A stretch of DNA of 64,000 nt from Kordia sp. TARA_039_SRF. GTDB lineage: Bacteria; Bacteroidota; Bacteroidia; Flavobacteriales; Flavobacteriaceae. Below are positions 45,480 to 59,584 of this stretch, piece after piece (position 1 is the first letter of the stretch; each line of letters opens with the position of its first letter). Where the stretch lies: assembly GCA_006383075.2 (NCBI GenBank), contig SMNH02000003.1:550496-614495 (forward strand). Direction: 5' to 3'. Made by a program: the position numbers and the translations under genes. Under the pieces are notes generated by a model. It worked only from the letters and a program-made list of their open reading frames with translations. It had not been told where the DNA came from and did no database searches.

Positions 45480-45570
45480 AAAACCGAAGAATTTCCTAAA
45501 CTTATCATAATTGAACTTTGAAATTTTCACTTCCCTCAAGAAAGCCGTATTTTTGAGAAAAAGCCCTTTT

Positions 45571-46428
45571 ATGAAGAATTTTCCCTTAAAATATATCTTT
45601 TTGTTAGTATTATGCACCAATTGCAACGTAAATTACGGACAGTTGAAATATGCTGGAAAGATTTCTGACGACTTGGAAGAAGTCTCTGGTATGGAATCGA
45701 TTCCTAATTTTAAAGGTTTTTGGATGATTAATGATGGTGGAAATGATGCCGAAGTGTATGAAGTAAATACCGAAGGAAAGATTTTCAGAACTTTGTATAT
45801 TGACGGGAAAAACCGCGATTGGGAAGATTTGACAAAGGATGCTAAAGGCAATTTATATATCGGCGATTTTGGTAACAATTCCAACGACCGAAAGAACTTG
45901 AAAGTATATAAATTGGACGCCAAAGACATGGCAGAAAAGAAAAGTATTGATCCTGAAAAGATTAAGTTTTCATTTCCAAATCAGAAGAAATTTCCACCGA
46001 AAAAGAAAGAACGCCATTTTGATGTAGAATCGTTTTTTTATCATAACGGACATTTGTATTTGTTTACCAAAAGCCGCACAAAAAAAGATTTTGGACGCAC
46101 TGATTTGTATAAAATTCCTGCCAAAGAAGGCGAATACGAGGCTGAATTTTTAGGCACATTCCACACATGCAGCGACGAACATTGCTGGGTTACCTCAGCA
46201 GCGATTAGTCCTGATGGAAAGAAAGTGGTTTTGTTGTCGCACAATGCGGTTTGGCAATTTACTGATTTTAAAGGTGATGATTTCCTTAACGGAACCGTAA
46301 AGAAATACGATTTGGGACATACTTCACAGAAAGAAAGTATCTGTTTTACAGACAATTCGACGGTATATATTTCGGACGAAGAATCGGGCAATAGTGGACG
46401 AAATTTGTATCAGTTTACGCTTGATTGA
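45571..46428 (+). CDS. Hypothetical secreted beta-propeller-like protein
   Basis: Signal sequence from ATG 45571; repeated blade-like GFWMINDGGNDAEVYEVN, KGNLYIGDFGNN, NSTVYISDEESGN. Confidence 0.7.
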   Translation: MKNFPLKYIFLLVLCTNCNVNYGQLKYAGKISDDLEEVSGMESIPNFKGFWMINDGGNDAEVYEVNTEGKIFRTLYIDGKNRDWEDLTKDAKGNLYIGDFGNNSNDRKNLKVYKLDAKDMAEKKSIDPEKIKFSFPNQKKFPPKKKERHFDVESFFYHNGHLYLFTKSRTKKDFGRTDLYKIPAKEGEYEAEFLGTFHTCSDEHCWVTSAAISPDGKKVVLLSHNAVWQFTDFKGDDFLNGTVKKYDLGHTSQKESICFTDNSTVYISDEESGNSGRNLYQFTLD

Positions 46429-51729: not shown

Positions 51730-54700
51730 TTAAAACCCAAAACCAAAACCGAATGCAAAACGCAGTCCGTCATCAGAATTAAATAATGAAATGTTCGCGG
51801 AAATCATATCAGCACCGTTGAGCCAAATTCCGCCTCCAAGCGATGTGTTCCATTTTTCAGAAGTATCGCCGCTAATCCAAATTCTACCATAGTCAAATCC
51901 TCCAAAGACACCAATATTTAACGGCAATATTCCTGTTTTTACTTTTCTTAGGTTTACACGTAAATCAGTTGTTTGTACAAAGGCACGCTTTCCAGTAAAA
52001 CGCTCATGGCGGAATCCACGCAAACCTGTTCTGGCACCCAAACTTGCTCCTTGATAAAATTCAAATCCATCACCAAAGTTAATATGTCCACGAAATTTTG
52101 TTGCCAATACCAATTGTCCGCTCGAAATGAGTCGATGATTGATGGCAAGTTCAGGAATCAAGTAGGCAAAACCTCTTGTGGTACTTACATTGTTTTTGTA
52201 TCCTGATTCTACACTGATTTCCATTCCCATCGTTGGAAACGCCTCATTGTCTACATTTTTGTAATGGTATTTTGCACGGACTCCAAAGAAATCTTGCTTG
52301 TCAAATAGTCGTGAATCTGCTGGAAAGTTTTGTTCTAAGAAACGTCCTGGTGTACGTTCTATTTCGTTGCTTTCATAGGACAATCCTGCTTGGAAATTTC
52401 CGCCTAATTGACCTCGCCAAATGAGTGATGGTGTAAATCGAAATGTTCGTATTTTGACACGATTGTAATCCAAATCTACATCCAATCCATCATTTTCATC
52501 AGCTTCAGGATTTGGTGTATTGTTTCCAAAACCAAAAAAGTTGATGGCGTAATTTGGACTGTTAAAATCGACTCCGAGTAATAAATTCCAACGTCCGATG
52601 ATATTGCTAAATTCTCCCAAATACCCAAGATCAAAACCATTGGTTGCGAAGAAATATTCTGCTCTAATCGTGTGACGAGACGTAAACGGATTTCGCTCAA
52701 AACCAAAGTCGGTAATCGTTGTTGAAACGCCTATTTTTATACCATCATCTGGATTGAATCCTGCTGTTGGAAGTAATTGTGATGTTCCGTTTTTTAACTT
52801 TTTGTAATCGTATACATTTGTTTCGTAATTGTCCGTCAACACTCTGTTTCCTTTGTTGCTTAAAAAGGTATTTTTCTTGGATTTATAATCGTAATAGACA
52901 ATTTTTTTACCGTTTTTGATGTCGTATACATCGTTGTTTTGTCCACCAACCAAACGCACTTTTATATAATCATCGCCAGTTCCGTACACGTGAAACACAT
53001 CGTCATCGTCTAACGCATAAATCCAAATTTCTTTGGTATCATCTTCATCATACGTTCGCTCATGGAAAATATCTTTTTTCTCACCACCTTTGATGCGATA
53101 CGCAGTCACTTTGGTTTTTCCATTTGGCAAACGTTCAATATCAAACCAATCATCTTTATTGGTTCCTTTGATAACCGCAAGTTTATTGATGAGTTCGTAA
53201 TAACGGTCAGAAATGGCTTGTAAGTTTTCGCGTCTTCCTTTTAAGTTTTTCTTGATTTCAACAAGTGTTTCATCGCGGACTTCTTCTGGAAATTCCAAAA
53301 ATGCTTCCTCAATTACTTCATCCGTTACACCTTCTTGAATAATTTTCACTTGCGCATCCCAAACATCTTTGCCCGATTGCTGAATGATTTCCATATCTAA
53401 CGGATACGGTTCTACATTCACACCTTTTACATCTTCTAAATCTTCTTCATATTTACGCAATAATCGTGCTGACGGAATGATTTTTACCGCAGTTCCTAAC
53501 AAGAAACCGTCTGACATTTTAGAAAATGCTTGGTCGCGGTCACGTGGCAACGGACGAAATACGCGTTGTCCATTTTCTCTAAATTCAATCCAACGCCATT
53601 GGTCTTGATGTCTGTCCCAATCGCCAATAAGCATGTCAAACAAACGCGCACGAATGTAGGAAGCTTCATCGATGATGATGTCTTCGTCTTTGTGCAATTT
53701 TTTCATAAAATCGTCCGTACTTTCCAAATCATCTTGATACCCAAAACTTGCTTTATCGCTGTGACCTTCGGATGTGTGTTCTTCAATCATGTACAATTCA
53801 TCTCCAAAATCGACATTGTATTTGCCCAATGCTTTTTGTTTTGGGACGTAAAACAGAATCGGATTCGTGTGATATACTTGCGCTCCATCTGCCAGTTTTC
53901 CCACGGCAAATGGCGCGTACGGATGTGCTCCTGTAAAAATATCTAAGATTAAATCCTGTGTTGAGGTATCTTCAAATTGATTTTTTACATATTGATCTTT
54001 GAATAAAACGGCTTGTAAGTATTGTAGCGCTTGTTTTCGCAACGCACGCATTACGTATTCCGCACCATTTTTGTCTCTTAATCGTAAGGATTTTGATTGG
54101 TTTCCACCACCTTTTCGAACAGGTTCCAATCCGCCATACAACGTATCTAAATCTACTGTTGGTGCTTTTACAGGCGTGCTGAAAAGTTTACGGTAGCGAT
54201 TGCCCCATAAAAATTTATGAAAGCCTGATTTTTCTGTTTCTTCTTTGGTATACACAGACGCATACACGTGTTTTGGAAATGTTTCTGGATAAATAGTTTT
54301 TAATTCAGGCGCGTCTTCGCGAATGACCTCAGTTTCAAATACTAATTCGTTATCTTCTGCAGAATAGAATCGCACAAAAGAAGAACCATCTGTAAAAACA
54401 TCCAAGCGGGCAAAACCGTGTGTTCCATACGAGAATTTTCCGCCACCAACGTTGCGTGTACCAGATTTTTTGGCACCCGAGCCACTTACTATCTGACGTA
54501 AATTATCTTCTGTAATATATTGTAAGCTGTGCTCGTGACCAGACACAAAGATGACTTTATCGTTTTCTTGCGAAAGTGTGATGATTCGTTTTCTTAATTC
54601 GTTATAACGCTTATGCGATTGGTCTACATTCGCCGTTCCACTTGTAGAACGAAGTAAGTTTTTTAAGCTTCCTAAAATTGGAATAGGCGTCATGTGAGTT

Positions 54701-55419
54701 TTGAATGTGTATTGCGCATTGTGCGGTCCGTTGGTATACATCGGGTGATGCAATGCTACAATTGTTGTTTTTCCACGCGCTTTTTTGATGAGACTACTGT
54801 ATTCTTCTAAAAACTTGGTGCGTGTTTTAATTTCACATTCGTCGTTCATGGTAGGATGTCTGTCCCAGTTGGTGATATACCATTGCGTATCAACCATAAT
54901 GAGTTCAATATCTTCACTGACGTGGATTTTTTCAATCGGACAGCCGTCTTCAGGTAGAAACGTATTTTTTCCAACAATATCTTCTATATATTTTTCTTGT
55001 CGTTTTAAACCTTCCAGACCATCGCTATACCAATCATGATTTCCAGGAATAAAGATGGTGCGTCCTTTAAAATCTTTTACAATACTTGTTTGTGCATCTA
55101 ATTGGTGTGCGGCATATTCTCTCAGAATACTTGATTTTTTTGGCAATCCCGCAGGATAAATATTGTCTCCTAAAAAAATAGCCGTACTATTTTTAGAAGC
55201 TTTCTGCAGTTCTTTTTCCATCATTTGCAAGGCAACTGCTTTATCTCCCAACGGAGAATTTCCTGCGTCACCAATTAAATAGAAGGTATGTTTTATCGTT
55301 TTTTCTGCTGGAAATGGATGTACACTTTTTTTGCCCGCGTACTGTGCTTTGTAGGTTGCGCAAGCATTTAAAAAAAGTAATAGTACCAAGATTCCGGTAA
55401 AACGTAGCAATGTTGTCAT
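51730..55419 (-). CDS. Lipoprotein with calcineurin-like phosphoesterase, kinase-like central region and C-terminal Omp85/BamA-like barrel
   Basis: Lipobox LFLNACATY; GDAGNSPLGDKAV, GDNIYPAG, GNHDW, GHEHSLQ; central LIGDWDRHQDQWRW...PRDRDQAF; C-terminal barrel ending FGFGFGF. Confidence 0.85.
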   Translation of the reverse strand: MTTLLRFTGILVLLLFLNACATYKAQYAGKKSVHPFPAEKTIKHTFYLIGDAGNSPLGDKAVALQMMEKELQKASKNSTAIFLGDNIYPAGLPKKSSILREYAAHQLDAQTSIVKDFKGRTIFIPGNHDWYSDGLEGLKRQEKYIEDIVGKNTFLPEDGCPIEKIHVSEDIELIMVDTQWYITNWDRHPTMNDECEIKTRTKFLEEYSSLIKKARGKTTIVALHHPMYTNGPHNAQYTFKTHMTPIPILGSLKNLLRSTSGTANVDQSHKRYNELRKRIITLSQENDKVIFVSGHEHSLQYITEDNLRQIVSGSGAKKSGTRNVGGGKFSYGTHGFARLDVFTDGSSFVRFYSAEDNELVFETEVIREDAPELKTIYPETFPKHVYASVYTKEETEKSGFHKFLWGNRYRKLFSTPVKAPTVDLDTLYGGLEPVRKGGGNQSKSLRLRDKNGAEYVMRALRKQALQYLQAVLFKDQYVKNQFEDTSTQDLILDIFTGAHPYAPFAVGKLADGAQVYHTNPILFYVPKQKALGKYNVDFGDELYMIEEHTSEGHSDKASFGYQDDLESTDDFMKKLHKDEDIIIDEASYIRARLFDMLIGDWDRHQDQWRWIEFRENGQRVFRPLPRDRDQAFSKMSDGFLLGTAVKIIPSARLLRKYEEDLEDVKGVNVEPYPLDMEIIQQSGKDVWDAQVKIIQEGVTDEVIEEAFLEFPEEVRDETLVEIKKNLKGRRENLQAISDRYYELINKLAVIKGTNKDDWFDIERLPNGKTKVTAYRIKGGEKKDIFHERTYDEDDTKEIWIYALDDDDVFHVYGTGDDYIKVRLVGGQNNDVYDIKNGKKIVYYDYKSKKNTFLSNKGNRVLTDNYETNVYDYKKLKNGTSQLLPTAGFNPDDGIKIGVSTTITDFGFERNPFTSRHTIRAEYFFATNGFDLGYLGEFSNIIGRWNLLLGVDFNSPNYAINFFGFGNNTPNPEADENDGLDVDLDYNRVKIRTFRFTPSLIWRGQLGGNFQAGLSYESNEIERTPGRFLEQNFPADSRLFDKQDFFGVRAKYHYKNVDNEAFPTMGMEISVESGYKNNVSTTRGFAYLIPELAINHRLISSGQLVLATKFRGHINFGDGFEFYQGASLGARTGLRGFRHERFTGKRAFVQTTDLRVNLRKVKTGILPLNIGVFGGFDYGRIWISGDTSEKWNTSLGGGIWLNGADMISANISLFNSDDGLRFAFGFGFGF

Positions 55420-55961: not shown

Positions 55962-57206
55962 ATGGAGACGCTTATTGTTGAAGTTGAAAAGTATGTAATT
56001 GACTTTCTGAATAAAAATGTTGACAAGTCGTATGTGTATCATAATTTAACACATACAAAAGCAGTTGTTGACAGCACGAAGGAGATTATTGAAGGTATGG
56101 AGATTGAGGAAAAACCTGCACAGCAACTTATTATTGCAGCGTGGTTTCACGATACAGGATATGCAAAAGGCGTAGAAAATCACGAAGAAGAAAGTGTCCG
56201 AATTGCTACCGAATTTTTAACACAATACAACATTTCTGAAGAAGATGTGAAGGTAATTACTGAGCTTATTTTGGCAACGAAAATGGGCAACAAGCCTAGT
56301 AATTTACTAGAGGAAGTTATTTGTGATGCCGATTGTGGACATATTGGAAGCAAGAATTTTCAAGCGTTAACAGAATTGCTCCGCAAAGAGATTGAATTGA
56401 CACAAGGCGAATCTATTTCAGAAGGCGAATGGTTGAAAGAGAATATCAACTTTTTATCAAAACAACATAAGTTTTACACAACGTACGCAGCAAAGAATTG
56501 GCAAAAACGCAAAGGAAAAAATCTTTCTAAATTACTAAAAACGCAGAATAAAGTTTCGCGTACCGTTACGAAATTAAAGCAGAAAAAAGCCGAGTTAAAG
56601 TTTAAAAAGCGTAAAATTGATTTGCCAGAACGCGGAATCGAAACTATGTTTCGCGTGGCACTTCGAAATCATATTACGTTGAGTGATATTGCCGATACAA
56701 AAGCCAATATTTTACTATCAGTAAATGCAATTATCATTTCCATGGTTTTGTCCAATTTGGTTTCTAAGCTCGATAATCCTTCCAATGATTATTTAATTTA
56801 TCCAACGATTATTTTTACGATTTTTACGGTAACATCGATGGTACTTTCTATTTTGGCGACACGTCCAAATGTAACTTCTGGAAAGTTTACGAAAGAAGAT
56901 GTAGCAAATAGAAAAGTGAATTTGTTATTCTTTGGAAATTTCCACAAAATGAAATTGGACGAATTTGAGTGGGCAATGGGCGAAATGATGCAAGACCGCG
57001 ATTATTTATACGGTTCACTCACTAAAGATTTGTACTTTTTAGGACTCGTTTTAAACCGAAAATATAGTTTATTGCGAACTACCTATACCGTTTTTATGAT
57101 TGGAATTGTAGTTAGCGTGTTGTCGTTCATCGTTGCGTTTTACACACGCGATCCTGAAGCTGGTAGAAGAGCGCATGAAGCAACAACCGCGTTGCTGCTT
57201 CAATAA
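55962..57206 (+). CDS. HD-domain phosphohydrolase fused to Pycsar-effector-like PycTM/DUF5706 transmembrane domain
   Basis: YVYHNLTHT, IIAAWFHDTGYAKG, VICDADCGHIGS; then RNHITLSDIADTKANILLSVNAIIISMVL, NLLFFGNFHKMKLDEFEWAM and C-terminal TM. Confidence 0.82.
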   Translation: METLIVEVEKYVIDFLNKNVDKSYVYHNLTHTKAVVDSTKEIIEGMEIEEKPAQQLIIAAWFHDTGYAKGVENHEEESVRIATEFLTQYNISEEDVKVITELILATKMGNKPSNLLEEVICDADCGHIGSKNFQALTELLRKEIELTQGESISEGEWLKENINFLSKQHKFYTTYAAKNWQKRKGKNLSKLLKTQNKVSRTVTKLKQKKAELKFKKRKIDLPERGIETMFRVALRNHITLSDIADTKANILLSVNAIIISMVLSNLVSKLDNPSNDYLIYPTIIFTIFTVTSMVLSILATRPNVTSGKFTKEDVANRKVNLLFFGNFHKMKLDEFEWAMGEMMQDRDYLYGSLTKDLYFLGLVLNRKYSLLRTTYTVFMIGIVVSVLSFIVAFYTRDPEAGRRAHEATTALLLQ

Positions 57207-57211
57207 ATCGC

Positions 57212-59584
57212 TTATTTCAATTCTTCCATCAATTGATCAATAGTCAATGCGGATTTTTCGTTAAAATCTTCTCTGTAAAGTACTTCTACTCGCAATGCTC
57301 TCAATCCAGAAACACCTTGCAAGTCTTCCAATTCAAGCTTTTCGAGTTTTCCAAAACAGTTTTTCGACTGCATGAATTTGATATACTTCATATATTCCAA
57401 TGCATCTTTGTCTTGCGAATATACAATGGCAATTTTTCCAGGAACCGTTAAACGTTCAGTCGTGTTTTTGATGTTGACTTTATCAATACGTTTTTTAATG
57501 ATTTCGTAACGAATATTGTACGCGCCATCCACGTCAAATTGCTTTTCATCCATGCGGAATTTAATTGCTAATGAACTGTTATGCACCAAAATAAGCGAAG
57601 CTACACGCAAGTCATGATCCATTTCTTTACGCGCATTATACGCTACTTGCTCCATTTCGTAGGTGTTTTGCAATTGCCACAAGCGCAAATTGTGCAAATA
57701 GAGTTTATGGAAGGCTCTATCACGCACTAACGATTGTCCGATATACATGTTGTATTCGACACCATCAGTTTTGTAACGCTCAAAATAATGCGGAAACATT
57801 TCTTGTGCTTCCTCTTGCTTTTTGTCTATATACTTTGCCAGCTTTACATTTAAAATATTCACGCTGTCTTCGTACGCTTTTCGCTTGTCGTACACCACTT
57901 TTAGATTTTTATCCAAACTGTTGATATATTCAGTTACCAACAACGCCAACGCTGGATTGGTTTCTTTTAAGTGATTGAAAACTGGATAAATATCTTTCTT
58001 TAAAAACTGTAAAATTCCGAGTTCGTCACCTGCTTTTAAACCTTCTTCTGTATCGTTTAAATAGGTTTCTACTCTAAAAATAAGCTCTTCGTAAATAGGC
58101 AAGTTTTCTTGATTGCTCGCTGCTTCCAAAACTTTAATTGCCAAATCCAATTGTGTAGTTAAATCTTCTTGAATGGCTTCATTTCGAGCAATGGATGAAC
58201 CTTTGATATCGCTTTGTCCGTACAACGGATACACATCGTCAAACACAATATTTTCAATTTCAGGATTTTCAACCTGATCTGCAATCTGCTTTTGATAATT
58301 TTCAGCTGCATCGTAAAAACGCCACTTTACCGATGGATGAATAGAAGTATATTGTTCTTGAATGGTAGCTTCTAAAGTATTTTGAAAATCTTCGGAAGCA
58401 CGTGAAACCGCTGCTTGAAACACAGGAATAATATCTTGAAGCTTTTGCTGATTTACAGAATTAAGCTCGTATGCGCGCGGAGACGCAATTTCCAATACTG
58501 CCAAATCTCGTCCTTGAGAAGCCACAATCGGAATCAAAATAATACTATTGATACCTTGTGATTTCAATCGCTTGTAAAAACTATTTTCACCAGAATGTTC
58601 TCGGTAACGTTCCAAATCTGAAATAGCAATTTCTTCTCTATTTATAAAGATTTTATCAATAATACCTCGACAGAAAAACTCATTACAAGACACAACATCT
58701 TCATCGTAAAATATCAAACTTTCCGAGCGTTTTATATGACTTTTGCAAGTTTTTTTATCCAAACCACCAAAGACAGAAAAACCAAGTTTTAAATCTTTGA
58801 TATTAAAAAATTCACTCAAGTTTTTACGTAAAGAAGCGACCATATTATCATCACTACGCAATAAATTTTCACGAATAGATGACAAGGTTTCATCAAAGGT
58901 AACATCGAATAAATTCATGATACCAAAGCCTTTGAAAATATAGCTTTCTAATGGAAATTTTTGCTTCCAAACTTCAATATTATCGTAATTATCCAATAAT
59001 AAGTGTACGTCTTCTTGGGTTATTTTCGGCGCATCTTCCGTTGGAATAACTTGGCAGAAATCACCATTAAACGCTACACGATAATGCTTGGTAATGCCTA
59101 AATTCTTGTCAGGGATGTCAAAATAAAATGGGCGTTTTAAATCAATCGTATATCCGTAACACACATTCAAAATCAACACACAAGCGTGCATGTATAACTC
59201 TCTTTCTGGAAGATTTCGCGCTGTAAAGCTATAATCGTCTCCCGCGTTTTTAAGAATATTTTGAAGTCGATTCGAATATTTGAACGATTGAAATGTAAAA
59301 GGAATGGTTGCTACCTTAATTTCATTATTTGTTAAAATTTCAGGGAACAATCCTTCCAATACTAAATCGATTTGTTCTTTGTACTCTTCTAATTTTGAAA
59401 AATCGGAAAACCCTTCTCGCAACTCTGGATAATTATCTAAATACTCCATAATTTCCACAGCCGACTTATGATACGGGTGATTTGTATCTTCTATATATTT
59501 ATCATAAAAAGAGATAACCTGGTCAAAACTTACAATAAGTTGCAACGGCAAATTAATTTCTTTATTTATATTTCTCTCTTTCAT
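57212..59584 (-). CDS. Large GAF-like domain protein, hypothetical (790 aa)
   Basis: Central SGENSFYKRLKSQGINSIILIPIVASQGRDLAVLEIASPRAYELN resembles GAF; remainder unassigned. Confidence 0.7.
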   Translation of the reverse strand: MKERNINKEINLPLQLIVSFDQVISFYDKYIEDTNHPYHKSAVEIMEYLDNYPELREGFSDFSKLEEYKEQIDLVLEGLFPEILTNNEIKVATIPFTFQSFKYSNRLQNILKNAGDDYSFTARNLPERELYMHACVLILNVCYGYTIDLKRPFYFDIPDKNLGITKHYRVAFNGDFCQVIPTEDAPKITQEDVHLLLDNYDNIEVWKQKFPLESYIFKGFGIMNLFDVTFDETLSSIRENLLRSDDNMVASLRKNLSEFFNIKDLKLGFSVFGGLDKKTCKSHIKRSESLIFYDEDVVSCNEFFCRGIIDKIFINREEIAISDLERYREHSGENSFYKRLKSQGINSIILIPIVASQGRDLAVLEIASPRAYELNSVNQQKLQDIIPVFQAAVSRASEDFQNTLEATIQEQYTSIHPSVKWRFYDAAENYQKQIADQVENPEIENIVFDDVYPLYGQSDIKGSSIARNEAIQEDLTTQLDLAIKVLEAASNQENLPIYEELIFRVETYLNDTEEGLKAGDELGILQFLKKDIYPVFNHLKETNPALALLVTEYINSLDKNLKVVYDKRKAYEDSVNILNVKLAKYIDKKQEEAQEMFPHYFERYKTDGVEYNMYIGQSLVRDRAFHKLYLHNLRLWQLQNTYEMEQVAYNARKEMDHDLRVASLILVHNSSLAIKFRMDEKQFDVDGAYNIRYEIIKKRIDKVNIKNTTERLTVPGKIAIVYSQDKDALEYMKYIKFMQSKNCFGKLEKLELEDLQGVSGLRALRVEVLYREDFNEKSALTIDQLMEELK

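Follow-up and report, generated by a model that had tools for sequence, protein, structure and literature searches.

The window analysed here, a stretch of 64,000 nucleotides from Kordia sp. TARA_039_SRF, encodes on its reverse strand (51730..55419) a 1229-aa lipoprotein that raises the question of what lies between the phosphoesterase domain near its N-terminus and the barrel at its C-terminus. Pfam matched the protein with Metallophos (residues 46-297) and, weakly, with a barrel, and residues 370-880 had zero coverage in Pfam, NCBIfam and PDB sequence searches. A preliminary description of this DNA had read a kinase-like core into that stretch, at residues 430-632, from the peptides RKGGGNQSKSLRLRDKNGAEYVMRALRK, YMIEEHTSEGH, LIGDWDRHQDQWRW and PLPRDRDQAF, each of which was found where it had been placed (the last one ending at residue 632, position 53524).

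Layout of the 1229-aa lipoprotein

The reading frame, the Pfam/NCBIfam matches and a full-length AF2 model (pLDDT 87.6, pTM 0.83) gave the order metallophosphoesterase (MPE) domain, kinase-like domain, beta segment and 16-strand barrel. The N-terminus carries a lipobox in its sequence, L17-N-A-C20 (55360..55371, on the reverse strand like all features of this protein), and the residues after Cys20 are ATYKAQ, an acidic cluster being absent; 47 of the 53 lipobox-bearing homologues likewise have no acidic residue at the five positions after the Cys. In Bacteroidota lipoproteins the LES-type surface export signal is an acidic cluster after the Cys, and since no acidic residues follow Cys20 this signal is apparently absent from the 1229-aa protein. 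From these sequence features the MPE and kinase domains are predicted to face the periplasm.

The MPE domain (residues 42-366; 54322..55296), which had earlier been placed at residues about 45-300, is borne out by a PF00149 match over residues 46-297 (E 1.2e-7; 32.8 bits, cut-off 21.5). Its metal ligands (D51, D85, N127, H225, H295 and H297) are kept, with conservation in 28-32 of the 32 full-length proteins of the same architecture, and its nearest fold is that of GAP50/purple acid phosphatase, GAP50 being the best PDB match. A beta-strand-rich linker (residues 747-861; 52837..53181), recognised from strands in the full-length model and from the C-termini of other forms of the protein, leads from the kinase-like domain towards the barrel.

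The C-terminal part (residues 879-1229; 51733..52785) is an Omp85-type outer-membrane barrel, as had been proposed: it has 16 strands in the model, Foldseek matches to BamA/TamA/Sam50 at about 1e-9, a sub-threshold match to NCBIfam Omp85_fam, and an L6-like motif GLRGFRHERF, in which the arginine of the loop 6 RG motif (R1134) is conserved in 32 of 32 proteins. No POTRA domain was found in the 1229-aa protein by Pfam or by the domain order of the model, and some known Omp85 subfamilies are likewise without it (PMC4104836). The 'Metallo' subfamily of Omp85 proteins was defined by PF00149 together with an Omp85 barrel (Heinz and Lithgow 2014, PMC4104836), and the 1229-aa protein very likely belongs to it; in that study PF00149 was called a metalloprotease, and no kinase was mentioned in this subfamily. 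The arrangement also resembles PlpD-type patatin-Omp85 proteins, in which an enzyme domain is N-terminal to the Omp85 barrel; PlpD, however, has a POTRA domain and its enzyme is released, whereas the N-terminus of the window's protein is lipid-anchored. In the open literature, subscription papers and preprints lying outside the search, no description was found of the kinase part of MPE-Omp85 proteins. We rate the kinase-like module as a new PKL family within an Omp85 protein whose MPE-barrel part has been known since 2014, and it offers a likely function for an overlooked part of the 'Metallo' proteins.

Fold and motifs of the kinase-like domain

An AF2 model of residues 400-768, computed from an alignment of 64 homologous segments (pLDDT 90.6, pTM 0.90), has the two-lobed kinase fold of the PKL superfamily, and the 31 highest-ranked Foldseek matches in the PDB were all PKL proteins, with a probability near 1. 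The fold read earlier is thus upheld and its extent has to be widened, the domain running from about residue 399 to about 745 (53185..54225). The ranking was led by CtkA of Helicobacter pylori (3akl, 7.3e-5), followed by PI4KIIalpha (3.1e-4), CotH (5jd9, 3.5e-4) and HipT (8ezr, 8.9e-4), with COQ8A, HipA and Rio2 among the further matches and FAM20C (4kqa) lower, at 0.015; TM-scores to known kinases were modest, at most 0.42 by query and 0.54 by target. The secondary structure of the model follows the kinase plan, with beta1, a loop and beta2 around GGG, beta3 with YVMRA, helix C with D493, beta5 and a hinge with E546, helix E ending in LIGDWDRHQDQW, two strands, and PRDRD.

Sequence comparison alone gave no significant match of the segment in Pfam, NCBIfam or PDB sequences, and no consistent Pfam family emerged when 64 module sequences were scanned. 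The best PDB sequence-profile match was again CtkA (E 0.044, not significant alone), with both catalytic motifs aligned. The HipA_C profile left the window's segment unmatched and reached 2 of the 64 module members at best E 0.19, the CotH profile (PF08757) gave no significant match to the module, and the Fam20C family was absent among the Pfam matches listed for the segment. In profile-profile comparison (hhalign), alignments of HipA_C and CotH drawn from sequences of the same bacterial family scored 15.5 and 15.0 respectively, which is not significant against 12-17 for unrelated controls; at these scores the best-aligned pieces fell on the catalytic motif in both cases. Membership of HipA_C or CotH is not claimed, since these scores lie within those of the controls. 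The earlier assignment to CotH/FAM20-type kinases was therefore right in kind, and it does not extend to membership: CtkA/HipT and PI4KII are nearer, CotH comes next and FAM20C lower.

The likeness to CtkA, HipT and HipA_C consists of the best PDB fold matches and a weak sequence match on LLGNFDRHNGNW and APIFDCG of CtkA. HipA and HipT are cytoplasmic toxin kinases, whereas the module of the window is exported and fused to an MPE domain and a barrel. With CotH kinases it shares the fold class and the order of an Asp-bearing catalytic loop followed by a D-x-D-x-x-F loop, although neither the Pfam nor the profile-profile comparison joins the two; a separate CotH gene is present elsewhere in the window's genome.

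Conservation of the motifs was scored in 43 distant homologues, which are spread phylum-wide and mostly 30-43% identical to the query. The Gly-rich loop KGGGNQSK (436-443; 54091..54114) lies between beta1 and beta2 of the model (strands 432-437 and 444-448), as in PKL proteins, with G438 and Q441 each conserved in 42/43 and GGGxQ in 36-42 of 43. In the beta3 motif YVMRALRK (455-462; 54034..54057; strand 454-459), R458 and K462 are both kept in 42/43; R458 appears to occupy the position of the VAIK lysine, and the nearby K462 could serve as the beta3 lysine. D493 (53941..53943) is invariant (43/43) in an alphaC-like helix (486-495) and is the putative acidic partner there, and E546 (42/43) belongs to the hinge-like LYMIEEHTS (542-550; 53770..53796) at the end of strand 541-547.

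The catalytic-loop-like GDWDRHQDQWRW (599-610; 53590..53625), which aligns with LLGNFDRHNGNW of CtkA, is conserved at D600 (43/43), D602 (39/43), R603 (42/43), H604 (39/43), Q607 (42/43) and both W608 and W610 (43/43). In the DFG-like metal loop PLPRDRDQAF (623-632; 53524..53553), aligned with APIFDCG of CtkA, D627 and R628 are found in 43/43 and D629 in 42/43. D602 is predicted to be the catalytic Asp and D627 a metal ligand, so that both the catalytic and the DFG-position metal-binding Asp of PKL proteins have a counterpart; Q607 would stand at the metal-binding Asn position by motif alignment. D602-R-H, D627-R-D and the other scored kinase motif residues are present in 32/32 full-length proteins of the same architecture, and the DRH triplet in 79/79 additional matches from a scan of genome contigs of which the best 80 loci were kept, each of them Flavobacteriaceae-type. 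The GDWDRH and PRDRD residues singled out by the preliminary description are therefore conserved among homologues. Because R458 and Q607 appear to replace the canonical Lys and Asn, we infer catalysis rather than assert it. One kinase-barrel homologue on a very long branch (L078:3058-5631) has degenerate motifs, being without GGG and reading GDWNET, and by sequence is likely a second, independent pseudoenzyme.

Distribution, architectures and the SRR/DRH pair

The kinase-like module is present in 110 of 151 genomes of the family and 142 of 396 genomes of the phylum (Bacteroidota), and it occurs with or without MPE domain and barrel. Four architectures were distinguished: (I) lipoprotein-MPE-kinase-beta segment-barrel, as in the window; (II) signal peptide-kinase-beta segment-barrel; (III) lipoprotein kinase-beta segment; and (IV) N-terminal membrane anchor-kinase. 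By eye and by the lipobox pattern, all four have N-termini that look like either an export signal or a membrane anchor, and since every form has one, the kinase-like domain is predicted to lie outside the cytoplasm. On the tree six changes of architecture are needed, compared to 23.4 with shuffled labels, and architecture IV forms one supported clade. The linker (52837-53181) shows repeated GxDxDxF / GGxxxDxY-like patterns and is found in forms I-III and absent from form IV. For the lone kinase forms of ~425 aa no common neighbourhood was found beyond near relatives. Plasmid matches to the module were all from Bacteroidota and annotated as 'hypothetical protein' or not at all; a phage origin was considered and dropped, phages giving no match.

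In two related genomes the parts of the fusion are split into three consecutive genes (L232:5051-9097 and L233:2838-6793), one for a lipoprotein with the kinase-like module, one for a lipoprotein with the MPE domain (PF00149, 2e-8) and one for an Omp85 barrel (PF01103, 8e-13; 3e-25 to the barrel of the window's protein), an arrangement which indicates that the parts belong together. Three further Omp85 proteins of 693-879 aa (L236, L237 and L238:3476-6115) show only distant similarity, to the portion of the module that makes up the C-lobe, and are a possible remote outgroup of the family.

In one genus (L241-L270, also L067, L068 and L069), probably Hymenobacter-like as judged by Hymenobacter plasmid matches, architecture III is also found as two divergently arranged genes. 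One member of the pair reads GDWSRR in 30/30 loci, both D602 and H604 being lost, and its partner reads GDWDRH in 29/29 loci where it was seen; the loci were retrieved with the SRR copy as query, so these counts show pairing and not SRR frequency. The SRR and DRH copies form separate supported clades in the tree. Judged by its motif, the SRR clade is likely a pseudoenzyme. The joint selective loss of D602 and H604 makes sense if both residues are catalytic, and their loss in one paralogue with retention in the partner suggests that the remaining copies are active. In FAM20B the substrate sugar is contacted by the counterparts of these two residues, the catalytic Asp and a His two positions further along, and FAM20C is activated by the pseudokinase FAM20A (PMC4421793, PMC5865150). 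The SRR/DRH pair resembles the FAM20A/FAM20C partnership and would represent an independent bacterial case of a pseudokinase working with a kinase. The module as a whole shares with FAM20 secretory kinases the DRH catalytic triplet, a non-cytoplasmic secretory setting and kinase/pseudokinase partners (PMC5865150, PMC4421793), but its fold match is weak (4kqa, 0.015), there is no family match, and the sequences are too distant for membership.

Proposed function and gene neighbourhood

We consider it fairly probable that Bacteroidota have a hitherto undescribed family of exported PKL phosphotransferases, that the segment forms its core, and that it works at the outer membrane alongside a phosphatase. 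In the mechanism that we propose, the lipid anchor would hold the N-terminus of the 1229-aa protein, and the kinase-like domain and the metal-dependent phosphatase would hang from the Omp85-type barrel into the periplasm. D602 would be the catalytic Asp, and the metal would be bound by D627 together with D629 and Q607; the kinase-like domain may phosphorylate an envelope molecule close to the barrel, be it a protein, a glycan or a lipid, and the phosphatase domain may remove or process the same phosphate. Gram-negative kinases outside the cytoplasm are, to our knowledge, hardly known, because ATP is thought to be unavailable there. With a conserved exported module whose active site looks intact and which, across Bacteroidota, is joined to a phosphatase and an Omp85 barrel, envelope phosphorylation becomes directly testable. 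More speculatively, these proteins might be outer-membrane-tethered kinases of envelope molecules that work without cytoplasmic ATP, with a matching phosphatase and a BamA-type barrel and, in some lineages, under pseudokinase regulation; if so, a phylum-wide kinase family would be the bacterial counterpart of the FAM20 secretory kinases.

The periplasm is poor in ATP, which counts against the preferred reading, as do the apparent Arg and Gln at the beta3 and metal-binding positions, the modest TM-scores and the profile-profile scores no higher than those of the controls. PKL folds may carry other chemistry, as in SelO (AMP transfer) and SidJ (glutamylation), and a transferase of this kind, or one using polyphosphate or a phospholipid as donor, would agree with the export of all four architectures to an ATP-poor compartment, with the non-canonical R458 and Q607, and with the PPK1 and SixA-like genes that adjoin a few kinase-barrel genes. 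PPK1 is, however, adjacent in only 4 scanned loci and lies away from the module in the window's genome, which set back a polyphosphate donor as the main reading; we regard such a transferase as rather unlikely and keep it as a rival. Unlikelier still would be a non-catalytic pseudokinase, serving as a binding or scaffold module in the assembly of the phosphatase-barrel protein: the non-canonical beta3 position, the degenerate motifs on the long L078 branch and the SRR clade are in line with it, but the near-complete conservation of DRH and DRD in the distant homologues, that of DRH in all 79 nearer ones, and the fact that one paralogue has selectively lost D and H where its partner retains them argue against it. 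That the fold is another one and the motifs are chance or convergent has the missing Pfam, NCBIfam and PDB sequence matches in its favour, and is made very improbable by the confidence of the model, the uniformly kinase top fold matches, and the order, spacing and secondary-structure placement of the motifs, which are those of the PKL plan.

The divergent neighbour of the 1229-aa gene encodes an HD domain + PycTM protein (55962..57206, forward strand; PF18967, 6e-38, and PF01966) and is the sole PycTM gene of the window's genome; across many families of the phylum, barrel-containing homologues likewise have such a gene at their side (52/80 loci in Flavobacteriaceae, 13/20 in the diverse set and 3/8 for form II). 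A phytase-like lipoprotein gene is located in the window about 5 kb from the 1229-aa gene (45511..46428, forward strand), its homologue adjoins the MPE-kinase-barrel gene in 58/80 Flavobacteriaceae loci, and an SdiA-regulated lipoprotein gene is found beside barrel-containing forms in 10/20 diverse and 5/8 form II loci. All of these counts are lower bounds because flank lengths differ, and the orientation of the neighbours varies. These conserved neighbours point to a pathway shared with the barrel-containing forms. A 280-aa gene upstream of a kinase-barrel form was initially taken as a split MPE, which proved wrong, as it encodes an SdiA-regulated/phytase-like lipoprotein.

At two loci (L230:8150-11997 and L231:8144-11982) PPK1, SixA-like phosphatase and HD-PycTM genes stand in a row beside the kinase-barrel gene, a possible link to polyphosphate metabolism. 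Finally, a 790-aa protein with a weak GAF match (57212-59584 of the window) is encoded convergently with the HD-PycTM gene, and the two are kept together in 45/80 Flavobacteriaceae loci.
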